The notes beneath the pieces are model-generated. The model was given only the letters and a program-made list of their open reading frames with translations, was not told the DNA's origin and searched no databases. DNA of 26,131 nt, from assembly GCA_020060485.1 (NCBI GenBank), contig JAGVAB010000123.1, positions 1 to 26,131 of the forward strand, given 5' to 3'. Positions 10,337 through 23,496 of this stretch are shown one piece after another (the stretch's first letter is position 1; every line of letters begins with the position of its first letter). Made by a program: the position numbers and the translations under genes. This DNA is from Anaerolineales bacterium. Its GTDB lineage: Bacteria; Chloroflexota; Anaerolineae; Anaerolineales; Anaerolineaceae.

Positions 10337-10364
10337 AAAAAAGGCACAGCCAATAGGCTGTGCC
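10337..10364 (-). terminator. Intrinsic terminator of the TPR/protease operon
   Basis: Read on the minus strand, GGCACAGCC, a four-base loop TATT, GGCTGTGCC, then six T residues. The 9-bp GC-rich stem is perfect. It begins 23 bases after the stop codon of the C25-like protease gene and ends the long minus-strand block that starts at rpoN. Confidence 0.92.
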
Positions 10365-10387
10365 TGCTGTCGATCAACAACACCCGC

Positions 10388-13087
10388 TCATCTTGACAAA
10401 GCTAACTTGACCATCTTTCCATTTTTATCAAAAGTGACCCGAGCATAATGATGGTGAATTTTCTTGTTACCTTGCACCTGCTTGCTGACGGTAACCACTG
10501 TTCGTCCGGCCTGCCCTTTGGCATACGAAGCCGTTCCCCCATCTAACCCCAACCCTTTGTGTTTCAAATAATCACTGTCAACCTGATATTCCTGACTGAA
10601 GGAAAATTGTGCTCTATCCAGCCCGGGCAGGTAAACCTCAACCACTTGCTTGACCTCTGATACCACATCTTTTTGGCACACCTGGGCACCATCTTCCCTG
10701 ATATCGCATACCATGCGCACATCCATCGGTACCCGCATGCGCGAGAATGATTTGGAGGCCGCTTGTTGGCCTTTGGGCCTTGCCAGAGGATCACCAAACA
10801 GCACAAAAGAGATCATCGTTTTTTGGTCTTCACCATCCAAAAAACCCTGTCGTTTTTCCATATGCTGAATGAAATCGATTTTGGAACGCCACAAAGCCTC
10901 GCCAGCTGTAACTCCCTCTTGCAAATGCTGCCAGAACAAATTGCAGAGCAGGTCAGCTCCAATCAGCGGCAGACTGACCGAACCATAGGCAACACAGGTT
11001 GAAGCAGCCACCGCAGATGTCCCGGCTGAGAGGAACCGCAAAGCCATCGACTCGCTTTCTTTTTTCTGAAATACATGGCCGCCATAACAAGCTTCGCTGA
11101 ACACCACTTGCGGTGATTTTCCATTCTTGACCAGGTCGGAAGGCCGTAATGCCACCGGGTAATCCGGCCCTATGTAGGGCTCGGTGATATCCCGCTGACC
11201 ATACCATTCAGGTGCATCAGACAACCCATGTAAATTGAAATACCCCAGCCCTGAACCCATCACCCGCTTATAATCAAAGCTTTCAGCTGGCTGCGGCGGG
11301 GATACTTCCAGCAGCTGCCCACCGCCGATTGGCCGGAAGACCGCAATGGAAGCTCGGCGCCAAACCGCTGCTGAATAACCGAAACCGTTTTTCTCCAGGT
11401 TCTCCAGAGAAGGCTTTCTGCTGAACAAAGCTGCCAGAAATTCAACAAGCTGCACCAGCAAACTTTTTGCACGCATCGTCTTTTGGTGCGATAATTTATT
11501 TTGATGCTCCTGGATCGCTTTACGTAATTGGGTTAAAAGCAACCCTGGGTCAGATCCTTTTTCATCAGGCATCCTGCCCACCGGCCATTCAGGCACGAAA
11601 TAATTACCATCCAGCGTGGCGTATGGGTTGTCTGAGGGTACGTCGTCATCCAGATCATCTGTCGGGTTGGGAAGGTGATGAAACGGTACCACCTCAGCCC
11701 CGCCCACGATCAACACAGCCCCGATCATCGAGCCTTTCTTTGCCAGCGCTTGATCCAGGTCAGCCAGGGCCAGCTTTAGTGACCAGGGATCAATTTCCTT
11801 GACTATCTCCACCCCAAGTTGGGCGGCACATTCCGTCTCGTCTGGCAAAAACACCAGACCATCCCATTGTGGATATGTGGCCACTGTTGCCGCAAGCCGT
11901 TGCATCTCCTTTTCCAGAATAGCACAGATTTGAGCGCCATATTTCTTCTCCAGGCCGGTTCGCGTTGAAAACACCACGTATACAGGAAACCTGCCGTCAA
12001 TCAAACCCAGCTTGGGGTCGTGATACTTATTGGCCAGTTTTTGAAAGGAACGGTCAATCGCCATCACTTCGAGATCATCAGTCTGATTCCTCCTGAAACT
12101 GGCTTTGCCATGCCCCTGCGTTGCTTTTTGATTTTCTCCCTTGTTGGCAGGACGAGAATCAACACCGGAAAGTTCACTGCCTTCACCAACAGATTCTGCC
12201 TCGGCACCCCTAACTTGCGGTACGTCAGGCATCATCACAGCAGGTTGCAAGTAAACCTCTGGAGCCGATTTTGGTGCATCCAGCAGATTCCATCCAAGCA
12301 CAACGGCCACCTCGGCCGGAACAGCCAGGTCAAACTTCATTCCCATCTTGTCTGGCCAAATTGGCAGAAAGGGGTGCTCGTTACCCCACAACCGACGCGC
12401 CACCTGCCCCGCCGGATCAGCAGCTACGCACGACTGAAACAAGCGCATCGCAGTTGATTCATCTTTAACATGCAGCAGCCCCTGGGCAGTCTGCAAACTG
12501 AATTGCAGGCATTTCGGCCAGCGAACATGATAGACGCGCGAAAAACTGAACAAACCAGCCCGATCCTGTGTGAGTGTCAACAAATGCAAATGCCGGATTG
12601 CCCCTAAAACAACATCCGGGTAATGATTCAGCACCGAATACACCAGGTCTTCAGCGTCTACCAATTCACCAGCCTCAAGTTTTCGTCCTGCCAGATGCAG
12701 CGATTCACTCCAAGGCAGCAATACCTGGTTATGCCCAATTGGTTGCCCCAAAGCATGCAAGCAAGAAACTGCCTGTATCTTTTCCTGGCTCCCATCAGGA
12801 AACAACGCCGCTGCCAACTGCCAGGCGGCTATAAATTCCGGATCCTGTGTACACAATGCTTTTAGATTATCCAAAGCCTGCTCGGGTTCGCCGTCCGCAT
12901 ACAGTGCTGTGGAAAGCATAAGGTTGGCTTCCAGATCACCTGGATACACCTTCAACCATTCCATTGCAGTCCTACTGGTGAAACGGTGTGCACCCGCAGC
13001 TTCTGAAGCCTGCACAAGCATCCTCAGGTCTTTCCGCCTAAAATTTGCCCTGGATATCCTGCTGCCGTCTTCCATGTTGACTGTCAC
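10388..13087 (-). CDS. TPR protein with caspase-fold (peptidase C25/gingipain-like) protease domain
   Basis: 899 residues with no signal peptide or membrane helix, so probably cytoplasmic. Residues about 35-240 contain degenerate TPR helices (for example YPGDLEANLMLSTALYADGEPEQAL). About 285-340 is a polar, likely disordered linker. About 365-770 is a caspase-type domain. PYATLDGNYFVPEWPVGRMP (from 488) matches the conserved pre-catalytic part of C25 peptidases. LGYFNLHG holds the putative catalytic His620, VVFSEACYGG the putative Cys667, and FVLFGDPLARP (761-771) the conserved closing motif. A beta-rich tail of about 130 residues follows. The GTG start overlaps the stop of the TPR gene (GTGA), with GAGG seven bases upstream; ATG 13075 is an alternative. 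CHAT is a related possible label. Adjacent genes suggest a scaffold-controlled protease. Substrate unknown. Confidence 0.82.
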   Translation of the reverse strand: MTVNMEDGSRISRANFRRKDLRMLVQASEAAGAHRFTSRTAMEWLKVYPGDLEANLMLSTALYADGEPEQALDNLKALCTQDPEFIAAWQLAAALFPDGSQEKIQAVSCLHALGQPIGHNQVLLPWSESLHLAGRKLEAGELVDAEDLVYSVLNHYPDVVLGAIRHLHLLTLTQDRAGLFSFSRVYHVRWPKCLQFSLQTAQGLLHVKDESTAMRLFQSCVAADPAGQVARRLWGNEHPFLPIWPDKMGMKFDLAVPAEVAVVLGWNLLDAPKSAPEVYLQPAVMMPDVPQVRGAEAESVGEGSELSGVDSRPANKGENQKATQGHGKASFRRNQTDDLEVMAIDRSFQKLANKYHDPKLGLIDGRFPVYVVFSTRTGLEKKYGAQICAILEKEMQRLAATVATYPQWDGLVFLPDETECAAQLGVEIVKEIDPWSLKLALADLDQALAKKGSMIGAVLIVGGAEVVPFHHLPNPTDDLDDDVPSDNPYATLDGNYFVPEWPVGRMPDEKGSDPGLLLTQLRKAIQEHQNKLSHQKTMRAKSLLVQLVEFLAALFSRKPSLENLEKNGFGYSAAVWRRASIAVFRPIGGGQLLEVSPPQPAESFDYKRVMGSGLGYFNLHGLSDAPEWYGQRDITEPYIGPDYPVALRPSDLVKNGKSPQVVFSEACYGGHVFQKKESESMALRFLSAGTSAVAASTCVAYGSVSLPLIGADLLCNLFWQHLQEGVTAGEALWRSKIDFIQHMEKRQGFLDGEDQKTMISFVLFGDPLARPKGQQAASKSFSRMRVPMDVRMVCDIREDGAQVCQKDVVSEVKQVVEVYLPGLDRAQFSFSQEYQVDSDYLKHKGLGLDGGTASYAKGQAGRTVVTVSKQVQGNKKIHHHYARVTFDKNGKMVKLALSR

Positions 13088-16000
13088 GCTTTCACCTCTT
13101 TAGGATTGTGTACCAGGTTCAATGCAACAATTGCGCCAAGTTGGCGGCGGATGTTCACATCACCCGGTGCCAGTTCGCTTGCCCGGCGCATTAATTCCTC
13201 TGCTCCCACGTAATCCTTTTGTTCCCGCAAAATCACTCCTGCTTTGCTGAACAGACGGTGATCTTCAGGAGCGATTTTCATTGCCTCGCGGAACACCTGC
13301 AGTGCCTGGGTGTTTTCCCGCCGCTCCAGATGGGTCTCACCCAATGCAATATAAGCTTCCAAATCTTGTGGATACTGCCGAACTGCCTCACTGAAATGAT
13401 ACACTGCCTGGTCCAGATGGCCTTCCGCACGTTTCAAACCGCCGATTAGATAATGCAGCCCAGGTTGTTGGGGGTCAAGTTTCAGGGCTCTGCAGGCATT
13501 CATGCCAGCTTCATGCCGCTGACCAAGTTCCATCTGCACTTTGGCCAACATGCCCAACACCTCTGCGTTGTCCGCCTCCGTTTCACTCAATTCAGACAAA
13601 AGCGGAGCGCTGGCTTCTGCGCCTTTCATTTTATGGATCAATTTTGCTCTTTCCAGGAACAACAAGGACGATTTCTTGCCGGCGTTGATGGTTTCCTCAA
13701 CAATGCGCAAGGCTTCATTGAATTTTCCGGCAGCTTTCTGCACTTCACACAAGAACAAAATACTGCCTGGTTCACCCGGCGCCCGTTTTAAGGCAAGGTT
13801 AGCACATTCCATCGCTTTCTTGTGGTTTCCCAACGCAAGTGCAATCTTCCCGCTCTGCAACACTGGCTCTGTCGAGTGCCGGTCCAGGGCGGCAGCCCGT
13901 TCGGCTGCCTGCAATGCATCTTGCCAGGCATGCGCCTGCTGATAACTCCGGGAGAGTAATAACCAAACCTGTGCCCGGTCTTCTGCTTCTTTGCTTGCCT
14001 TTTCCAGCAATTGAATAGCCTGTGGCACATCCCCTTTTTTCAAACGAGCATTTGCCAACGCCAACACATAATCCAGATTCTCGGGCATCAACTGGCAAGC
14101 TTTCTCCCAATGTTCTGCGGCCAAATCAATATCCTGAAGCAATTCTGCCAATTGGGCCGCCCAGGCATGCCATTCGGGTTCATCTTCCCATATCTCCAGC
14201 CCGCCTTCCAGTGCTGCCAATGCCTCCGGGTAGCGGCTTGCTTCCTGCTCCACCAAAGCCAGCCCGGCACACAAAATGGGCTGATGAGGTTGATTGGAGA
14301 TCGCCTGCCGGATGACCTCACCGGCTTTGATCGGCAAGGTTTTTCGAAGGCTTAGGCCGTATTCCAGCAAGACTTCTGGAATTGCAAGATTCTTTTGACT
14401 AATTTGAACCGCCCCGGCATAATTCTCACTTCTTCGCAACGCAGCTACCAAGGCGGTAAGATCACCCGCAGTTTGTGCAGTCTTGGCAAACGAGCGAATT
14501 TTCTCCACCGAAGCATGAAAGATCATGTTGCCCCGCATTGCCCAGCGGTCGATTTCCTCTGATTTACTTAATCTCCTCAGGGTATCGATCAAATCAGCGA
14601 AACTATCCTTACTGACACTAGTAGCGAGGAATGAACCGGGAGCATGTCGTATAGATTTCAATTCACTGTAAAGGGTTTGTGTTTCATACAACCGGACAAT
14701 GACACTGGCAAAATGAAGCAAGCCGCGCGGCTCATAAGGATTTGCGTTTTTGAATTCTTCTGCCAGTCGGAATGCATTTTGCCAATCCCCGGCTTCAAGA
14801 GCGGCTTTCGATAACCGGATTATCGTTGCTGCCAAGGTATCTGGAGTTTGGTCAAACCCGGCAATTTGAACAGTCGGAACTACCTTCCTGTTCCTGGCCT
14901 GCCACAGCCCTTTATCAGCTTCAAGAAAAAATTCCCGCGCCGCCTGCCCATCGCCGTTTAGCGCGAGGCAGCGACTCTTGGCCGCCAGTAGTCCGGAATT
15001 CCCTGCTTCAAATAGCATGCCTTTCTCAAGCATTTTCACTGCCAGGGGCATTGAATTCCCATCCTCGATTTTCTGGTCAATCAACATGCCATATAATGCT
15101 GTCCAGGCAATTTTTTCCTCAACAGGAATAGCGGATATTTTTTCTTCATTCCACTCCAGATTTTCGATGGCTTTCAGCCAAACAATTAGTTTTTCTTTGT
15201 GCAGCAAGGCATCAGCCTGGTCAACAGCCCAATAACGGACCACGGCCGAGTTTGGATTTAATTCAAGCGCCCGTTGCAGATAGCCTAAAGCAGCCTCGCC
15301 ATCCCCCAGCTTGTGAAGCAAAACACCCATCCTGAATTCAAGCGCTTCAGGAGAGAGCAAGCTATGGTGCCAGCTTTCTGGCAGTACGCGCTTGACCAAT
15401 GCGGAATCAAACGGGAACCCTTCTGTTGGCCGGGTTCTCATACTTTCGGCGTGCTGCAAGCTCGCCAGTGCACCCTGAGGCCGATCCAACGCGGCCAACA
15501 GATCTCCCTGGAACAGATACAAACATGCGTTCCCCGGGAAAGCCTGTACCAATTTTCGGGTCAGTTCTTCCGCTGCGGCCAGGTCACCACACTGTGCCTG
15601 AACACAAGCCAGTTCAAATAAAAGCTCTGCAGATGGTTTTTCTTCCAGAGAGGCGGCTCGCAACAAACTGGCAGCGCAAGCTTCCCGATCTCCCCAACTC
15701 AGGTAGAGATTTGCTGCATGTCGCAAATCATTTGTGCATGCCACGTCAAGTTCCAGCATCTTCGCCAGACTGTCCCTTGCTCCTTTTTCATCTTTCAGCC
15801 TGGTTTGCAAGCCAGCGAGCTCAACCCAGAGACCTGGTTGGCCGGCATTGAACTGAGTTGCACAGCGAAGTGCCTCCACTGCTTCCTGAATATACCCGGC
15901 TTGACTGGCGATGCTTGCGTACCAGATCAATTCTTCAACCTGGTCAGGCGCCATGCTGCGTACAGCCTGGGCTGCCTGGAATGCCTCATCACTGAGGTTC

Positions 16001-18531
16001 GCATTCAGATAGGCATTTGCCAACTTTCGCACCACATCCAGACGTTTTGGCGCAGCCTGGGCAGCTTCTTTCAACGAGGCCAGGGCGATGTCCGGCATTC
16101 CCAAAGCATCCGCTGTTACCCCCAGTCCGGCAAATAACCGCCAGCGCCAATCCGGCAGAGTCACGTTGGGTGTTTCCATCAACGGTTTGAACAGTTCCAG
16201 CGCAGCCTGATTCTGACCAAGTGAGCCCAGTACCTCAGCCAGAGCCAACTGTGCAGCAAATGAAAAAGGTTCTTCCTCCAGAACTTCTTGCAACACCCCC
16301 TCAGATTTTTTGAGGTCAGATTCCTGCACAGATCCTGTCTTCGCCAGCAAGGGATTATGACCCGCAAACAAAGCGTCTACGTACTTCATTTTGAGTTCGC
16401 TCGATGCACCTTCTGCCTGGATAGCAACTTCCAAGGCAGGCACTGCACTTGCATAATCACCCTCAGCCAAAGCTGTTTCTGCTGCCAGTGCAGCCAGAGA
16501 AACATCCTGCGGCCATTTTTCCAGTGACTTTCTCAGGAATAATCTGGCTTGGGTTGTCTTTTTCAATGCGAAGAGGTTGGTGCCCAACTCATAAGCCAAT
16601 TCCTGCGAATCAGGGTTCAAGTTAGCGGCTGCCTCAAAGAACGGTAGAGCTTCTTCTGCTTTCCCGCCCCGTAGAAATGCCTGCCCCAAAGAATGGTTGA
16701 TCGCCGCAGAATCAGGCAAAGCCTGGTATGCCGATTGCAATGTTTCCAGGGCCTCGTCCTGTCTGCCCAGTTTCGAATAAGCACCTGCCAGATCAAGCCA
16801 AGTGTCGGCGTGATCTGGCGCAACCTGTACGGAGGTTGTCAAATGAGGAAGTGCATCCGCATCCCGATCCAAATGCCGCAAGGCTCTCCCAATCAATGCA
16901 TTGGCCGCACCATTGCCGGCATCCTTCTCCAGGGCGGATTCGCAGGCTTTTACCGCAATTCGAGGCATCTCTGCTTTGAGCGCACTGCTTCCGAATCCCA
17001 GCCAGTCTTCAACATCGGGGACTTCGTTCAGCCGGATGACCTGCGCCCATGACTCATATGCCTCTTTCCAGCCATGCTGTTTTTCATAAAGGCTGGCAAG
17101 CTTCCGAAATCCCTCCGCCTGTTCTGGTGCAAGGATTGCCGCCATTTGAGCATAGCTGATCGCGTTTTGCAGGTCACCAGACCTCTCCAACCGTTCACTG
17201 ATATTTTGCAGAATTTTTGCGTCATTTGGCCGTTTCTGTTGGATCACAAGCGCAAACTGCAATGCCTCAGCCTCCAGGCCAGCAGCCGCCAGAATATCCA
17301 CCAGCTCCAGTGGATTCCATTCAGCCACAAACCTGGGAGCAAACAAATCCTTTTGACCGCCAACCAATTCGGCAATCTGTTGCACAGCCTCTGCTGCCAC
17401 CCCTTTTGCTCTGGCAGTCTCACCGATGTTCATCAGGCATTCCGCCTTGCGGATCTGCAAGAACGGGTGCAATTCCAGTTGGTCGTCAACCCTTAGAAGA
17501 TTGACCATCACATTAGGCAGAAAACTCGCTTCAGGTTGTGACAGGATTTGTTTCCATTGGTCACCCTGCGCAATTTTTTGATCAAGCTGGGCTGTATCGC
17601 CCATCCGCTTGGACTGGTAGAACTTCTGCAGTTGCAAACCCGTTTGCCAGTTTTTTGCAGCCTGCTCAACTACTCTTAACAGACAAGCAGCGTTGCTGCT
17701 TTGTCCGGCAATCTGATAAACCCCCGCCAGTGTTTGCAGCCTTCCAATATGTGCCAACAACTGCTGGCTGTCCAGCAAGTTCAAATCGCTGGCAGTCATC
17801 TCGTCCAGATTGGAGTACTGTTCCAAAATCGCTTCTGCAAGATCCTCTGCCAGTTCAGAATGCCCTTCAACCACCAGGCCCTGCAAAGAAAAATACGCCT
17901 CCTCCAGAGGCATCCGGGAAAGTAAGGTCAAATAGCGGGACAACCTTTTGTCGGCATTTATCGGGTTGGCAGATACAACATGCACAAGGATTTTCGGAAA
18001 CGCCCCTTTCAGTTCAAGTTCAGATAAGGATTTCAACATGGCCATACCATCTGGAATCATACCAAACAGGCAGACCAGTACGGTTTTCCAGTTCTTTAAT
18101 TCCCCAACTTGCGTTTCAACCATCCCTGAATTTCTAAAAACTTCTTTCCAGCTTTGCGAAAGACGCCATTGTTCCCGCAATGCCAAAGAAATTAAACCTG
18201 CTTCCTGTACATTCAGCAGTTGCCGCCCGGATCTGCCAAATTCCTTGAAAACCCGGTTGGCTTTCCGTTGCAGTTCATCATCCACCAAGAACTGTACTCG
18301 TTCACGCAGTCCCGCATAGGCGTCAGGACAACCCAAAGAGATCAAGGCCAATCGAGCAGGCGAGAGTTCAAAAACATCCTTTACTTTGTTATTCAGAAAG
18401 GCGAGTAGAAGCTGCTCGTCTTCCAAACTTTGCCAGACCAGCGAATCTTGCCGTAATGCTGCCAGAGTAATGGCAGCATCCTCTGCAGTGAATTTGATAC
18501 GCAAGAAAGAAAACAATGCGGAGTTATTCAT
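13084..18531 (-). CDS. Giant tetratricopeptide-repeat protein (1815 residues)
   Basis: A very long, wholly alpha-helical protein with no signal peptide, membrane helix or enzyme motif. The first 260 or so residues are helical but match no repeat I recognise. From about residue 405 to the C-terminus, 34-residue TPR units follow one another (for example LPHLTTSVQVAPDHADTWLD, then AYSKLGRQDEALETL, with the W/Y-G-A-P pattern). The count is on the order of tens. Such superhelices bind peptides or partner proteins and serve as scaffolds or sensors. Its stop overlaps the protease gene's start, so the two are translationally coupled and likely form a complex (inference). A weak GGGGAG lies 12 bases before the ATG. 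It is 42 bases from the upstream small membrane-protein gene and shares the sigma-54 promoter at 18933-18948. Confidence 0.9.
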   Translation of the reverse strand: MNNSALFSFLRIKFTAEDAAITLAALRQDSLVWQSLEDEQLLLAFLNNKVKDVFELSPARLALISLGCPDAYAGLRERVQFLVDDELQRKANRVFKEFGRSGRQLLNVQEAGLISLALREQWRLSQSWKEVFRNSGMVETQVGELKNWKTVLVCLFGMIPDGMAMLKSLSELELKGAFPKILVHVVSANPINADKRLSRYLTLLSRMPLEEAYFSLQGLVVEGHSELAEDLAEAILEQYSNLDEMTASDLNLLDSQQLLAHIGRLQTLAGVYQIAGQSSNAACLLRVVEQAAKNWQTGLQLQKFYQSKRMGDTAQLDQKIAQGDQWKQILSQPEASFLPNVMVNLLRVDDQLELHPFLQIRKAECLMNIGETARAKGVAAEAVQQIAELVGGQKDLFAPRFVAEWNPLELVDILAAAGLEAEALQFALVIQQKRPNDAKILQNISERLERSGDLQNAISYAQMAAILAPEQAEGFRKLASLYEKQHGWKEAYESWAQVIRLNEVPDVEDWLGFGSSALKAEMPRIAVKACESALEKDAGNGAANALIGRALRHLDRDADALPHLTTSVQVAPDHADTWLDLAGAYSKLGRQDEALETLQSAYQALPDSAAINHSLGQAFLRGGKAEEALPFFEAAANLNPDSQELAYELGTNLFALKKTTQARLFLRKSLEKWPQDVSLAALAAETALAEGDYASAVPALEVAIQAEGASSELKMKYVDALFAGHNPLLAKTGSVQESDLKKSEGVLQEVLEEEPFSFAAQLALAEVLGSLGQNQAALELFKPLMETPNVTLPDWRWRLFAGLGVTADALGMPDIALASLKEAAQAAPKRLDVVRKLANAYLNANLSDEAFQAAQAVRSMAPDQVEELIWYASIASQAGYIQEAVEALRCATQFNAGQPGLWVELAGLQTRLKDEKGARDSLAKMLELDVACTNDLRHAANLYLSWGDREACAASLLRAASLEEKPSAELLFELACVQAQCGDLAAAEELTRKLVQAFPGNACLYLFQGDLLAALDRPQGALASLQHAESMRTRPTEGFPFDSALVKRVLPESWHHSLLSPEALEFRMGVLLHKLGDGEAALGYLQRALELNPNSAVVRYWAVDQADALLHKEKLIVWLKAIENLEWNEEKISAIPVEEKIAWTALYGMLIDQKIEDGNSMPLAVKMLEKGMLFEAGNSGLLAAKSRCLALNGDGQAAREFFLEADKGLWQARNRKVVPTVQIAGFDQTPDTLAATIIRLSKAALEAGDWQNAFRLAEEFKNANPYEPRGLLHFASVIVRLYETQTLYSELKSIRHAPGSFLATSVSKDSFADLIDTLRRLSKSEEIDRWAMRGNMIFHASVEKIRSFAKTAQTAGDLTALVAALRRSENYAGAVQISQKNLAIPEVLLEYGLSLRKTLPIKAGEVIRQAISNQPHQPILCAGLALVEQEASRYPEALAALEGGLEIWEDEPEWHAWAAQLAELLQDIDLAAEHWEKACQLMPENLDYVLALANARLKKGDVPQAIQLLEKASKEAEDRAQVWLLLSRSYQQAHAWQDALQAAERAAALDRHSTEPVLQSGKIALALGNHKKAMECANLALKRAPGEPGSILFLCEVQKAAGKFNEALRIVEETINAGKKSSLLFLERAKLIHKMKGAEASAPLLSELSETEADNAEVLGMLAKVQMELGQRHEAGMNACRALKLDPQQPGLHYLIGGLKRAEGHLDQAVYHFSEAVRQYPQDLEAYIALGETHLERRENTQALQVFREAMKIAPEDHRLFSKAGVILREQKDYVGAEELMRRASELAPGDVNIRRQLGAIVALNLVHNPKEVKA

Positions 18532-18573
18532 TGGTGATCCCGTCTCCCCTGTTTCTTGCAGCTAATCTCTGAT

Positions 18574-18888
18574 CTACAATAATTGCAGAGCCAGAATATA
18601 AGCGGCTGCGATCATAACCAGACCAATCAGGAAAAGAAAAACCCCCACTCCGGTCGCTGTCTTCACCAATTGGTTCAAAGCATCGATTAGTTTGGATGCA
18701 TTTCCAACCAACCCGGTGATGTCCTCTGCAAGCCCTTTCTGGGCAAGAAGTGTCGTTTGCTTTGCGATCACCTTTAAATCTCCCCAGACCAGCTTGGTGA
18801 CCAATGTAAATAACCCAACAACCGTTGTTACAGTCCCCAGAACAAAGAGGCTTGCTGCCATTGTGAGAATAAAATCGGGAATAGTCAT
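18574..18888 (-). CDS. Small two-TM membrane protein, function unknown
   Basis: 104 residues with two long hydrophobic segments (about 5-35, LTMAASLFVLGTVTTVVGLF; and about 80-104, GVGVFLFLIGLVMIAAAYIL). They are joined by an amphipathic helical stretch of some 40 residues (KVIAKQTTLLAQKGLAEDIT...LIDALNQLVKTA), which looks like a helical hairpin or short coiled coil. I do not recognise a family. It is the first gene after the sigma-54 promoter and the first of three genes leading to the TPR and protease proteins. It is a plausible membrane docking or effector component of that module (inference). A stop codon directly precedes the ATG, so no longer N-terminus exists in this frame; the ATG at codon 10 is an alternative start. 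Confidence 0.75.
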   Translation of the reverse strand: MTIPDFILTMAASLFVLGTVTTVVGLFTLVTKLVWGDLKVIAKQTTLLAQKGLAEDITGLVGNASKLIDALNQLVKTATGVGVFLFLIGLVMIAAAYILALQLL

Positions 18889-18901
18889 TTAAAAAACAAT
18901 G

Positions 18902-18907
18902 CCTCCT
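18902..18907 (-). promoter_or_regulatory. Unusually spaced ribosome binding site
   Basis: A perfect AGGAGG on the minus strand is 13 bases from the ATG at 18888, longer than the usual 5-9. The intervening bases include a run of six T. Either initiation is weak or the effective spacing is shortened by structure. Confidence 0.55.
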
Positions 18908-18932
18908 GAAAAGTGAATTCAGTAGACATTGT

Positions 18933-18948
18933 TGCAAGGTCTATGCCA
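18933..18948 (-). promoter_or_regulatory. Sigma-54 (-24/-12) promoter of the small-TM/TPR/protease operon
   Basis: On the minus strand the sequence is TGGCATA-GACC-TTGCA. The -24 GG is at 18947-18946 and the -12 GC at 18935-18934, exactly the consensus spacing (TGGCAYR-N4-TTGCW). It begins just after the stop codon of the sigma-54 activator gene. The predicted start near 18922 leaves a leader of about 34 bases that includes the AGGAGG. It differs from the rpoN promoter at only two positions over 18 bases. Confidence 0.82.
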
Positions 18949-18955
18949 ATTGCCT

Positions 18956-20128
18956 TCAGGTAGTGCGTGTCAAATCCGCTGGCAGATGTGCGACATCGAT
19001 CACCGCATCGTCGCAAAACAGCAAAGCCCGCTCAATGGCGTTGCTCAATTCACGCACATTTCCCGGCCAGCGATACGACACCAAAGCCTCCAGACAACGT
19101 TGAGAAATATCAGTAACATTCACTCCCAACCGAAGATTGTTCTTGCGCACAAAAAATCCTGCCATTTCAGGAATATCCTGCCGCCGCTCCCGCAGTGGTG
19201 GCAAATGCAAGTCTACAACTTTCAAACGATAATACAGGTCTTCCCGAAACGCGTTTTCTGCAATCATCGTCGGCAAGTCTCTGTTTGAAGCAGCCAGAAT
19301 CTGCACATCCACATGGATCAAATTCGTACCACCCACTCGGCGAAAGGCATGTTCTTCAATAGCCCGCAGCAATTTTGCCTGGATATCCAGAGGCATGGAT
19401 GAGATTTCATCCAAAAATAAAATACCCCCATCAGCCACTTCCATCAACCCGTGCTTGCGGCGGTCAGCGCCGGTAAAAGCCCCCGCCTCATATCCGAACA
19501 ATTCTGATTCCAGCACAGTCGGCTGGATGGCAGCACAATTCACCGCGATAAAGGGCTTCTCGGACCTCGGCCCTGATTTGTGAATATAATTCGCCAGCAC
19601 CTCTTTGCCGGTTCCGGTTTCCCCGGTGATTAACACGGATACTGAAGCCTGGGCGGCGCGTTTTGCCTGATTCACAACAGCCTTCATTGCCTCGCTCTTA
19701 CCAACAATGAAATGTAGATCTTTTTGCTGGGTTTGACGCAGGTGGGTCAATTCCCTGCGCATGGAAACTGTTTCACACGCCCGGGCCAATGAACTTTCCA
19801 ATCGGGAAAACTCGATCGGCTTGGTCAAAAAATCATGTGCGCCATTCTTCATGGCCTCAACCGCCATTTCAATATCGCCATAGGCGGTGATCAGAATGAC
19901 CGGTGGACGAAACTGCATTCGCTCGGTTTCATACAAAAGACTGGGGCCATAACCATCCGGCAATTGAACGTCCAGCAGGACAATCTCGGCGCCACCCAGA
20001 TCCAAATTCTGCCGCGCTTCTGCCAGGGTGGACACCCCGATCACTTCATAGCCCTTGCCGCCCAGAAATTCTCCGATGTTCTGCCGCGCGTTTTCTTCGT
20101 CATCTACAATCAAGATGGTGTAGCTCAT
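18956..20128 (-). CDS. NtrC-like sigma-54 activator lacking a DNA-binding domain
   Basis: Response regulator that uses ATP to open sigma-54 promoters. The 390 residues comprise a receiver domain (about 1-120; acidic pair Asp9-Asp10, phosphoacceptor Asp53 in LLDVQLPDG, Lys103). An AAA+ domain (about 140-385) has Walker A GETGTGKE (169-176), the sigma-54 contact loop GAFTGA (216-221), Walker B GGILFLDE (234-241) and WPGNVREL (354-361). The chain ends about 30 residues after that, at DLTRTT, where other family members continue into a Fis-type helix-turn-helix. No continuation in other frames is visible, so this is a genuine short form as in FlgR or CtcC. GGGAG sits seven bases before the ATG. 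It is 11 bases after the kinase gene, its evident partner. Confidence 0.95.
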   Translation of the reverse strand: MSYTILIVDDEENARQNIGEFLGGKGYEVIGVSTLAEARQNLDLGGAEIVLLDVQLPDGYGPSLLYETERMQFRPPVILITAYGDIEMAVEAMKNGAHDFLTKPIEFSRLESSLARACETVSMRRELTHLRQTQQKDLHFIVGKSEAMKAVVNQAKRAAQASVSVLITGETGTGKEVLANYIHKSGPRSEKPFIAVNCAAIQPTVLESELFGYEAGAFTGADRRKHGLMEVADGGILFLDEISSMPLDIQAKLLRAIEEHAFRRVGGTNLIHVDVQILAASNRDLPTMIAENAFREDLYYRLKVVDLHLPPLRERRQDIPEMAGFFVRKNNLRLGVNVTDISQRCLEALVSYRWPGNVRELSNAIERALLFCDDAVIDVAHLPADLTRTT

Positions 20129-20139
20129 AATTATTCTCC

Positions 20140-22068
20140 CTAGGTTGCAGCCGGCAGTTCAACATGAAAAACAGTGCCGCCGGGAAAGCTGGTAACATAA
20201 ATTGCACCGCGATGGGTAGTTACAATCTGCTTGGTGATAGCCAGCCCCAAACCAGTCCCTCTGGGTTTTCCGGTAACGAAGGGCTCAAAAATCCGCTCGC
20301 GAAGACTGTCCGGTATGCCAGGCCCGTTGTCGGCCACCGTTACCTCAATCTGCGGCAATTGATTGATTGCTTCCTTCAAACTCACCCGCACCGAAAGTGC
20401 GCCACCTTTCTCGCTCATCACATCAACCGCGTTGCTGATCAAATTTGTAAACACTCTTTCCAAAGAACGCATGTCCCCTTTCACCTGGGGCAGATCCTCA
20501 TCCGCTTTAAAATAGTTCTCAATATTCACCCGCACCATGCGCGGCCGCCAGCGATTCAACACCCGCTGCACCAGATCAGGAATGTTCACGTCCTGAAATT
20601 TTGGTTCTACAGGTCTGGAAAACGCAAGCACCGATTCCATTAGTTCATTGAGCCGCGTGCAATCATTTTGCGCCCGTTCGATCAATTCAAGATTGGCTTC
20701 ACTGTCCTTCGAGCGGCTCGCCAGGAGCTGCAAACCTGTGGAAATATTATTGATCGGGTTACGCACCTCATGAGCGAATACCGCCGTGAACTCGCCCAAC
20801 ATGGCGTGATTTTCCAGTTGCTCCGCCCGGATGCGGATCTTCTCTTCCTCGCTCAGGTCGGTGATCAAAACCAGCATCGCTTGCGGGCGACGGTTCTTGA
20901 CCACCGGCACAACCTGGATCTGGGCCGGCACCGCAATCCCATCCCGGCGATGCAAAGACACTTTGGCAATATTATGGTTCTTTAAACTTTGCAAGCCATC
21001 TTCCAGGGTCTGGATCAAATCCAGCGAACCAATGAGCACATTCTCCACACTTTGACCGCAAACTTCTGCACAGGTATACCCCAAAAGTACCTCGGCCACA
21101 GAATTGATCTCGATCACCTTGAGGTCCGGCGTCAACACCACAATCCCTTCCTCTGTGTGTTCCAGTAAACTGTTTAAAACAGACAGGGAAAAATCCTTTT
21201 TCTGGCTGTCGGTGCGCAGATTATCAATCAATGCAAATTTCTGAAGTTGATCGCTAATAAATACCCGAAAATAGTTCAGGATTTGTTCCGTGTCAAACCC
21301 CGCATCCTTTTTTACATCCCCAACAACCAGCAATCCCAAGGCGGCCTGCTGCTGCCCAATGGGCACAGAAGCTACATATTTCAGGCCGGCCATTTTACTT
21401 AAGCGATGTAGCTCGGAATACACCCGCCGCCCGGGTTTCCAGATCATTCCCTCTGAAAGCCGGATCATATCCGCCGAGGAAAGCACTGGAGGAAATACTT
21501 CGGCAGCGGCTTTCAACGCCACTCGCAGGGCTTGCGGTTGGCTGCTGTCAACGCGATAGATACAGATCAAATCCGTCCCCAGAAACCGGGAGAGCACATC
21601 CATGACCAGAGCATACAATTCATTTTCGCTATGAATCTCATTCTGTTTGACCAGCTTGAGCAATAATTCAAAAGAATCCATTGAGACCTGCAAGGCCCGC
21701 GGGCGTTCAAGCGACTCTTCAACTTTGAGTACCACCCAACCAGCCGCCTCAGCCAGGAACACAGGCTCAACCATCACATCCACAAAACCGGTCAGACGCT
21801 TTTTAAGTCGCAGTGATTGTCTTTGCCCGGCCGCAAGATTGGACAGGGAGAAACCTTCCAGAGCTTCACCACAAGGTTTTCCAATGAGTTCATCCAGGGT
21901 GTAGGTGGAAAGTTCCAGATATTTGCGATTGGCAAAGGCAATTTTCTGGCTTGCAGCATTAAACAACAGCGCTGCTTCAGGGATCAAATTGAAAACAGCG
22001 CTGATTTCAGGCCAGGTCGGGAAGTTTCCCAACAAAAAATCGGGCAGGTCAAAAATTCTTGGCGTCAT
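20140..22068 (-). CDS. Soluble PAS-GAF-PAS histidine kinase (NtrB-like)
   Basis: 642 residues without any membrane helix, so a cytoplasmic sensor. A PAS-like domain (about 20-115) is followed by a GAF domain (about 130-285), a second PAS (about 295-410) and the kinase core. The H-box FAHEVRNPINNIS gives His433 as phosphorylation site. The ATP domain has N-box NLISNAVDVM (near 542), G1 DNGPGIP (580-586) and G2 GTGLGL (604-609). The NtrB-type H-box and the neighbouring NtrC-type regulator make the pair near certain. Its ATG overlaps the rpoN stop (ATGA). The signal is unknown: GAF and PAS folds can bind small molecules, haem or flavin, and no ligand-specific residue is evident. Confidence 0.95.
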   Translation of the reverse strand: MTPRIFDLPDFLLGNFPTWPEISAVFNLIPEAALLFNAASQKIAFANRKYLELSTYTLDELIGKPCGEALEGFSLSNLAAGQRQSLRLKKRLTGFVDVMVEPVFLAEAAGWVVLKVEESLERPRALQVSMDSFELLLKLVKQNEIHSENELYALVMDVLSRFLGTDLICIYRVDSSQPQALRVALKAAAEVFPPVLSSADMIRLSEGMIWKPGRRVYSELHRLSKMAGLKYVASVPIGQQQAALGLLVVGDVKKDAGFDTEQILNYFRVFISDQLQKFALIDNLRTDSQKKDFSLSVLNSLLEHTEEGIVVLTPDLKVIEINSVAEVLLGYTCAEVCGQSVENVLIGSLDLIQTLEDGLQSLKNHNIAKVSLHRRDGIAVPAQIQVVPVVKNRRPQAMLVLITDLSEEEKIRIRAEQLENHAMLGEFTAVFAHEVRNPINNISTGLQLLASRSKDSEANLELIERAQNDCTRLNELMESVLAFSRPVEPKFQDVNIPDLVQRVLNRWRPRMVRVNIENYFKADEDLPQVKGDMRSLERVFTNLISNAVDVMSEKGGALSVRVSLKEAINQLPQIEVTVADNGPGIPDSLRERIFEPFVTGKPRGTGLGLAITKQIVTTHRGAIYVTSFPGGTVFHVELPAAT

Positions 22069-23474
22069 ACCTGTTGGCTAACCGAATTTCGAAGATGCGC
22101 AGGCAAAATGCCTTCCATGGCCCGATACTTCGCCACAGTTCGCCGCGCGACATTAAAACCTTCTTTCGCCAGTAATTTTGCAAGCTCAGAATCGCTCATT
22201 GGCTTGTGCTCCTCAGAGATTAACTGGCAAAGCACCGTGCGGGCGTTCAGGCTACGGTCAAAGAATGAAGCCAGGGGCACGATACGCCCGGTGGGTAATT
22301 GTACCGTCTTACTGGATACTGCGCGGGAAATTGTCGATTCATGCACCTCAAGCTCTACCGCCAGCTCTGCCCGGGTCAATTGCCTAAGATATCGTTCACC
22401 ATGGACGATGGCCTCACGCTGTATGCCGACCACTTTTTGCAGCAAGCGCTGCATGGTATGGTTACGTTGCTGAATGCATTTTACCAGCAAAGATGCCCGC
22501 TCCAGATCGCTTCGCCAGGCATTTTGCTTCTCCGGCTCAACATCGCGCACAGCCCGTCGAAAAAGGGGGTTGACCCGCAACGTGCCATAGAGCGGCATGA
22601 TGATCTCCACCACTAACGGATTATTGACATCTTGATTCAAATAACTGATGATAATATCTGGCTGCCGGTAAACCTGAACAGCCGTTCGTGATGGCTGGCG
22701 CACATCTCCCCAATAAGAGCGCGCCGGATATGGGTTGAGGTTTTCACTGATGAAATGCACCGCCTCCTGAATCTTGCGGGTGGAAGCATTCAATTGATGG
22801 GCCAATTCGGTCAATTGGTGGCGGCTAAGTTTATCCATCCCGCTATTGATGATTTCCACTGTGAATTCGGGGATAAACTGGCTTTCTGCCAACACCTCAA
22901 CTTGTACCACCAACGCCTCCCGAGGCGACCTGGCTCCTACGCCAATCGGGTTTGCCCGTTGAATAAGCGCCAATACCTGTTCCACGCGTGAGGGGGGCAC
23001 ATGGAAAAAGCGAACCACTTCTTCAAGGTCCACGGTCAGCAAACCATCATCATCCAGGTGGGTAAGTAGAAAGGCTGCAATCGATCTATCCTCAATGGCC
23101 AGTTCAGGCGCAATCTGTTGAAACACATACGTAGGCAAATCCGCACCGATTGCAGGTTGATCCACTTCTGGCATCTCTTCTTCCCGCCGATCGGAACGCG
23201 GGGTAAAATCTTCCCGCGGCGAAATAAACACCACCGGCTCGTCTGCATTGTCCGACTTTGGACAACTGCACGTCGGGCAAATGCCGCGTGAAGGCAGTAA
23301 ACGGCTGCATGTTGGGCAGCGGCGCTCCTCGACCATCTCCAGTGCCGGATTGGTAGAGAGTTCCGATTCAATCTCCTGCCGCAGCTCATCGGCCGTCATG
23401 CTTAATAACGTCATGGTTTGCGCCAGGTGAGCTGTGGTTAATGGGCGAAGTGCGTGTGATTGAATTTGAAACAT
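22065..23474 (-). CDS. rpoN: RNA polymerase sigma-54 factor with zinc-ribbon insert
   Basis: Directs RNA polymerase to -24/-12 promoters. The 469 residues show region I (MFQIQSHALRPLTTAHLAQT, with MTLLSM). The acidic region II carries a four-cysteine knuckle, CPTCSRLL then GICPTC (Cys53, 56, 66, 69), not found in the enterobacterial protein. Next are the core-binding region, a helix-turn-helix (LTRAELAVELEVHESTISRAV) and the diagnostic RpoN box ARRTVAKYRA (443-452). The ATG at 23474 is chosen because AAGGGG (23487-23482) is seven bases before it; the ATG at 23480 is too close. First gene of the minus-strand block, overlapped by the kinase gene, and preceded by its own -24/-12 element, implying autoregulation. 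Confidence 0.96.
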   Translation of the reverse strand: MFQIQSHALRPLTTAHLAQTMTLLSMTADELRQEIESELSTNPALEMVEERRCPTCSRLLPSRGICPTCSCPKSDNADEPVVFISPREDFTPRSDRREEEMPEVDQPAIGADLPTYVFQQIAPELAIEDRSIAAFLLTHLDDDGLLTVDLEEVVRFFHVPPSRVEQVLALIQRANPIGVGARSPREALVVQVEVLAESQFIPEFTVEIINSGMDKLSRHQLTELAHQLNASTRKIQEAVHFISENLNPYPARSYWGDVRQPSRTAVQVYRQPDIIISYLNQDVNNPLVVEIIMPLYGTLRVNPLFRRAVRDVEPEKQNAWRSDLERASLLVKCIQQRNHTMQRLLQKVVGIQREAIVHGERYLRQLTRAELAVELEVHESTISRAVSSKTVQLPTGRIVPLASFFDRSLNARTVLCQLISEEHKPMSDSELAKLLAKEGFNVARRTVAKYRAMEGILPAHLRNSVSQQV

Positions 23475-23496
23475 ATCCATACCCCTTACGTGAACT

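Follow-up and report, generated by a model that had tools for sequence, protein, structure and literature searches.

Locus organization

We analyzed a 26,131-nt stretch of DNA from an Anaerolineales bacterium (assembly GCA_020060485.1, contig JAGVAB010000123.1, positions 1 to 26,131), hereafter the window, which carries a three-gene protease cassette behind a set of sigma-54 regulator genes. Coordinates are in window numbering and all parts described lie on the minus strand. The order on that strand is rpoN, a histidine kinase (HK), a response regulator (RR), a two-transmembrane (two-TM) protein, a 1815-aa TPR protein, a TPR-C25 protein, a terminator and a neighbor that we take to be alaS. A preliminary description of this DNA had proposed a unit of the two-TM, TPR and protease genes with a sigma factor, a kinase and an activator upstream on the same strand and a terminator at its end, and this layout held.

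The cassette forms one operon and opens with P0013 (18574–18888, start codon ATG at 18888), a 104-aa protein with two TM segments called by eye and a conserved core around GLVGNA, for which no Pfam family scored over its cut-off. P0002 (13084–18531), the 1815-aa protein, is a TPR protein by Pfam profile search and may serve as a scaffold. P0001 (10388–13087, 899 aa) combines an N-terminal TPR part, also found by Pfam search, with a Peptidase family C25 domain. The intrinsic terminator (10342–10365), found by a terminator scan, consists of a 10-bp stem at 10365–10342 followed by TTTTTA; as a class, terminator-like sites are not enriched in the window (9 versus 10.9 in shuffles). Upstream, profiles identify rpoN (22065–23480), a PAS/GAF HK (20140–22068) and a 390-aa NtrC-like RR (18956–20128).

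Residues 433–770 of P0001 match PF01364 (Peptidase_C25) at 59.1 bits (E = 6e-16), exceeding the curated cut-off of 23. The C25 fold is assigned from this profile together with a structure model, in which segment 556–648, needed to superpose the His/Cys pair on a known active site, has a predicted local distance difference test score (pLDDT) below 50. His620 and Cys667, the residues singled out in the preliminary description, are invariant in all 24 aligned family members and presumably form the catalytic pair. A sequence search of the PDB with the C25 family listed TPR or designed repeat proteins and no peptidase. VIA-align gave no caspase, CHAT or separase chain among the matches listed, which counts as no evidence against them. 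Pfam search found no CHAT family for P0001 at E 0.1 or better, with neither a HetF-type nor a TPR-CHAT-type CHAT domain recognized, and none for P0002 among the 25 families listed of 29. We consider real proteolysis by the C25 protein likely.

Conservation in Chloroflexota

Relatives were collected by a scan of genome contigs, which yielded 226 loci; the best 80 of the 226 were examined. The two-TM, TPR and C25 genes are consecutive on one strand in 61 of 61 readable Anaerolineae loci. Another 19 of the 80 lack a two-TM match; their available sequence upstream of C25 is 5.1 kb or less and stops short of that gene. RpoN, HK and RR lie directly before the cassette in 44 of the 61 readable loci, so the search for the same six-gene order in relatives, suggested in the preliminary description, had a positive outcome. 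Two further loci (L032 and L049) have RR in view with other genes between it and the cassette. The flanking genes are not fixed, since alaS lies within 700 nt past the cassette in only 34 of the 71 loci reaching that far.

Of 121 genomes sampled from the order, 94 contain the C25 family (E at most 1e-30), and 94 have an RpoN that scores over its cut-off. Both are present in 88 genomes, C25 only in 6, RpoN only in 6 and neither in 21 (Fisher p = 3.6e-13, ignoring phylogeny and genome completeness). In a sample of 151 genomes from the phylum, the C25 model matches 10, some over the protease domain only, and the two-TM model matches 7; RpoN is present in 8 of the 10 C25-matching genomes versus 46 of the 141 others. 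RpoN is also found in 35 of 37 further genomes with examined loci (missing from those of L057 and L067). A mobile or defense island was considered and rejected, since most genomes of the order carry the cassette (94 of 121).

Sigma-54 promoter and activator

A pattern scan found two perfect -24/-12 sites in the window, one before the two-TM gene and one before rpoN (23536–23521), the latter suggesting possible autoregulation. Sites with up to one mismatch number 4, versus a chance mean of 2.0. The site before the two-TM gene, TGGCATAGACCTTGCA (18948–18933), matches 12 of 12 specified positions and lies 7 nt from the RR stop codon. In RR-linked loci, a 12/12 site lies within 200 nt of the two-TM start in 40 of 46 and an 11/12 site in 4 of 46, while 1 of 1220 shuffles scored 11 at this promoter. 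The -24/-12 promoter placed ahead of the unit in the preliminary description thus has the GG-N10-GC pattern of sigma-54 promoters at a fixed place in relatives. The message of the two-TM gene is expected to start at 18922.

RR ends at 387–397 residues in all 46 readable C-termini, near the end of the AAA+ lid and without a helix-turn-helix (HTH) domain. A receiver and an AAA+ domain with no C-terminal HTH is the architecture of type Ic, HTH-less sigma-54 activators. FlgR of Helicobacter and CtcC of Chlamydia are likewise response-regulator activators without a DNA-binding domain, as parts of two papers describe (PMC3162934, PMC7482065); the predicted targets of the window RR differ, being division genes and the protease cassette. 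A DNA operator for RR was considered and set aside, as RR has no HTH. Each of eight related genomes has one rpoN and one strong sigma-54 activator (215–243 bits). A second, weaker activator (161–166 bits) occurs in three of the eight, and RR is the only strong one in five.

A predicted hairpin over the ribosome-binding site

An inverted repeat (18896–18932) spans the region from the promoter to the Shine-Dalgarno of the two-TM gene. Its 5' arm (18932–18918) covers positions -10 to +5 relative to the expected start, and its 3' arm (18910–18896) covers the Shine-Dalgarno AGGAGG (18907–18902). The repeat scores z 8.2 against shuffles in the window and above 2 in 44 of 54 sequences that have both a site and a ribosome-binding site (RBS). 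Among them, L041 (z 2.2) shows a 5-bp match that does not involve the Shine-Dalgarno; by eye, this locus instead has a terminator-like repeat just ahead of its promoter. Repeats are rare at other sigma-54 promoters (ftsL 4 of 19, gene A 3 of 23, rpoN 1 of 6, counting only sites with a recognized RBS). In most sequences the 5' arm begins at -10 or slightly downstream, so RNA begun at about +1 would lack most of it.

The predicted energy to open the RBS and start codon has a median of 16.8 kcal in read-through RNA and 6.3 in sigma-54 RNA; scrambling the -10 to -1 block gives 8.8 kcal. The gap between the two RNAs is at least 3 kcal in 40 of 45 RR-adjacent sequences (not in the window, L014, L041, L051 and L064). 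For the nine sequences not adjacent to RR, the medians are 8.8 versus 6.9 kcal, and one (L016) has a gap of at least 3. Presence of the repeat follows the upstream gene. Where a gene in the same direction lies close upstream, 44 of 46 sequences have the repeat (this gene is RR in 45 and a different one, 161 nt away, in L016; the repeat is missing in L064 and L066). It is found in none of the other 8 with a site, of which six have a divergent upstream gene, one has a co-directional open reading frame 622 nt away and one has none in the available stretch.

For covariation, we aligned 32 author-chosen sequences from the 54 and read a structure of 16 pairs off the alignment. Cells pair in 79.5% of cases, versus 42–53% when the arms are slid. 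Double-change cells number 79, versus 31 in shuffles and 18–30 in the slid controls, and the covariation score is 0.39 versus 0.21. Positions -7 to -5 have three or four pair types each.

Transcription of the regulator genes would continue directly into the cassette, and a hairpin hiding the RBS would block translation of such read-through RNA. With good confidence we read the repeat as an RNA lock, in which RNA from upstream hides the RBS and RNA from +1 is translatable. A DNA operator for a dimeric repressor is an improbable alternative: the repeat does overlap the expected start site, a position that would suit a repressor, but its arms vary between loci with compensating changes, many G-U pairs fall on the fixed Shine-Dalgarno side, and its presence tracks the direction of the upstream gene.

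Related hairpins are described for T4, where the RBS of I-TevI, soc and e is hidden in RNA from upstream promoters and the late promoter of I-TevI itself yields RNA too short for the hairpin (PMC2988022, in part). In the Anaerolineae, too, the RBS is predicted to pair in upstream RNA and the cassette's own start to fall inside the 5' arm. Unlike the T4 hairpins, this one is chromosomal, lies at a sigma-54 promoter, covaries across bacterial relatives and is predicted from sequence. An Rfam search of the window found nothing at the gathering cut-off, and around the hairpin nothing at E 1 either. The arrangement suggests a rule for a leak-proof operon, with an anti-Shine-Dalgarno placed between -10 and +1. 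In four loci (L040, L045, L069 and L017) a T run comes after the hairpin, as judged by eye, and there the hairpin could also terminate read-through RNA.

Regulon and division genes

Across the eight genomes, perfect -24/-12 sites number 91, versus 19 for a reversed-pattern control. Our own tally places 33 of these at five recurrent targets (rpoN, the two-TM gene, gene A, ftsZ2 and ftsL). Each of these genomes encodes two FtsZ proteins, with ftsZ1 closing the dcw cluster; labels in this cluster other than FtsZ, FtsL and the penicillin-binding protein are presumed. In seven genomes the mraW-ftsL gap contains a 12/12 site; in the eighth the site there is 11/12. The ftsL label is based on position together with an FtsL-family match below the cut-off (E = 4e-9). 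In 37 further C25-positive genomes, the ftsL-like gene and gene A are each found in 36. Promoters were counted at the 30 best-scoring loci of each gene. A site of 11/12 or better precedes ftsL in 25 of 30 loci (shuffles 4 of 1500) and gene A, of an A-ftsZ2 operon, in 29 of 30 (missing in L269 only; shuffles 1 of 1500).

Eight of the 61 readable loci have no site of 11/12 or better at the two-TM gene (L026, L032, L043, L046, L049, L070, L072 and L079). In each of them the cassette comes immediately after ftsZ2 and some of its small partner genes, in the same orientation. Six of these loci also show gene A, the other two beginning at ftsZ2, and gene A carries its own site of 11/12 or better in all eight genomes. 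Where it has no promoter site, the cassette therefore sits behind sigma-54-driven ftsZ2 genes, and this position ties the protease to FtsZ2 independently of promoter motifs. Upstream genes of the ftsZ2 type were not seen in six contrast loci of other types that keep their own site (L016, L031, L057, L067, L005 and L011). Judging from this comparison, the cassette and the division genes very probably belong to one regulon.

Five FtsZ2 sequences (L114:5178-6332, L116:8350-9525, L207:5333-6550, L111:4146-5294 and L112:4960-6129) keep the GTP-binding GGGTGTG and the C-terminal peptide. Their T7 loop reads NVDFAH or NVDFSH (5 of 5), versus NLDFAD in two FtsZ1 sequences. We take the Asp replaced by His to be the second catalytic Asp, and GTP hydrolysis by FtsZ2 is therefore probably impaired. 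Gene A (about 450 aa; L116:6997-8337 and relatives) matched no Pfam family at E 0.01. Its structure model (pLDDT 72) is a TIM barrel like those of glycoside hydrolases (Foldseek E = 2e-6), and no signal peptide is seen by eye.

Interpretation

We assign a probability of roughly 55% to the reading that the cassette is a doubly locked, sigma-54-switched protease module of a division or cytoskeleton program in Anaerolineales. For the division or cytoskeleton role itself we see about even odds. In the proposed mechanism, the PAS/GAF kinase would phosphorylate RR, which, being HTH-less, would act from solution on sigma-54 RNA polymerase. RR-phosphate would then turn on rpoN, the dcw cluster from ftsL, the A-ftsZ2 operon and the cassette. 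The hairpin would block translation of read-through RNA, leaving sigma-54-started RNA as the only translated form. The two-TM and giant TPR proteins may position the C25 protease at the membrane, where it would cut a division or envelope protein; a division target is suggested by the division-gene partners and by analogy to HetF. A bolder version, which we offer tentatively as rather unlikely in full, has a dedicated sigma-54 switch driving septation by making a caspase-fold protease along with dcw proteins and a second, probably hydrolysis-impaired FtsZ. In this version the protease would be a division checkpoint that resembles HetF or separase in function but arose independently, and the RNA lock would protect it by making its message translatable only from the sigma-54 start. 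These Chloroflexota are filamentous.

Several results weigh against a locked division module. A shared regulon is no proof of a division role for the protease, and control of ftsL and A-ftsZ2 in the source organism is deduced from genomes of relatives. Most perfect -24/-12 sites (58 of 91) fall outside the five recurrent targets, five of the 30 ftsL loci have no site (L218, L220, L226, L235 and L242), and C25-family matches occur without RpoN in 2 of 10 genomes in the phylum sample and 6 of 94 in the order sample. For the hairpin, the energy gap in the window is small (4.6 versus 3.2 kcal): the measurement covered a 15-nt stretch, and the window's Shine-Dalgarno, 13 nt ahead of the ATG, falls outside it. 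An accessibility test of the Shine-Dalgarno alone was not significant (p = 0.16; median 0.00 versus 0.21), with start-codon accessibility at 0.06 versus 0.55; this test used a simple motif pick, which took the wrong start in the window, and is a different measure from the opening energy, which used in-frame starts. Of the 22 sequences outside the covariation alignment, 12 have the repeat, some being near-copies, and the other ten are all those scoring z 2 or below. Two of the five covariation measures do not exceed shuffles: pairs with any double change (9 versus 8.2, a count reached in 167 of 500 shuffles) and further pair types (25 versus 26.8, reached in 452 of 500). Loci with and without the repeat also form groups related by descent, and the hairpin statistics ignore phylogeny.

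The best-surviving rival is envelope-stress or quality control, in which a membrane TPR scaffold would deliver damaged proteins of the envelope or septum to the protease, with division genes induced at the same time for repair. In its favor are the two-TM protein, sigma-54 and the envelope genes, and the genes after ftsL include murein-synthesis genes, labels that are partly our assumption. One survey, in the part available, ties sigma-54 to the bacterial exterior (PMC3162934). We nevertheless give this rival perhaps one chance in five or slightly more, as the most constant partners are ftsZ2/A and ftsL, not chaperones or repair genes.

The preliminary description had instead favored a tightly silenced conflict or programmed-response system, with a protease silent until attack or stress that then destroys cell proteins or a membrane partner. 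The sigma-54 switch is well supported by comparison; the conflict role is not supported, the comparative data pointing to cell division. Two layers of silencing would suit a harmful product, and a caspase-like fold combined with TPR fits such a system, as in TPR-CHAT, a TPR protein with a caspase-fold protease that works with the type III-E CRISPR effector. However, P0001 has no CHAT match and no CRISPR effector is among the proteins scanned. PADLOC gave no match for P0001, P0013, HK or RpoN, so the effector matches none of its anti-phage defense profiles; RR matches RtcR-type entries because of the shared AAA+ domain, and P0002 reaches 34.6 bits against PDC-M71B, although none of its stretches passes individually. 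Nor is the cassette patchy like defense genes, and it has promoters and operons in common with division genes. We regard a conflict role as improbable. Also improbable is a non-proteolytic scaffold that uses the C25 fold for binding while the TPR complex organizes FtsZ2 or the septum; the long TPR protein does dominate the cassette, which has no known substrate, but His620, Cys667 and their surroundings are invariant in 24 of 24 members.

Comparison with known systems

Among the closest known systems is HetF of filamentous Anabaena, a CHAT-TM-TPR divisome protein that acts through FtsI (PMC8406250, in part). It likewise joins a caspase-type domain to TPR and membrane parts. It differs in having a CHAT rather than a C25 domain and in being one protein rather than three; moreover, sigma-54 was absent from the 29 Cyanobacteria covered in the available part of a survey (PMC3162934). 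Gingipains, the Peptidase family C25 proteases, are secreted, whereas P0001 is fused to TPR and has no signal peptide evident by eye.

The same survey, again in the part available, marks the cell-division category minus for sigma-54, its activators and its promoters (PMC3162934). The main text of a regulon survey, as far as available, has no mention of Chloroflex-, Anaerolin- or dcw (PMC12316311). By title and abstract, with few subscription journals covered, the literature yielded no paper in which sigma-54 controls division genes and none on an Anaerolineae sigma-54/C25-TPR system. The preliminary claim that no described system has this composition therefore agrees with the literature searched at that level, although the parts are of known kinds. 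What appears new is the presence of sigma-54 sites before ftsL and a second ftsZ across a bacterial order, together with a caspase-fold protease. If the division reading is true, control of septation in these Chloroflexota and the role of caspase-like proteases in bacteria outside immunity would both become directly testable.

Other sigma-54 sites

The longest rpoN reading frame starts at a TTG (23525) inside its own promoter, where automatic start calls may err; the true start is probably ATG 23480. The -12 box TTGC of this promoter doubles as a -35 element (TTGCAA-17-TATACT, 23525–23497 in the window). This hybrid arrangement, with exactly 17 nt to TATACT, is present in six of six rpoN promoters read (the window, L118, L119, L121, L188 and L189); L190, L120 and L116 yielded no rpoN start by motif and are outside this count. 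Sigma-54 may compete with sigma-70 at rpoN.

An 11/12 site of near-constant sequence lies inside murB in six of the eight dcw clusters (L209–L212, L215 and L216). It probably reflects coding conservation and was not counted as a target. A further recurrent sigma-54 site precedes a protein of about 730–800 aa in three genomes (L125, L128 and L184), which by eye has one TM segment and a phosphatase-like and propeller look.

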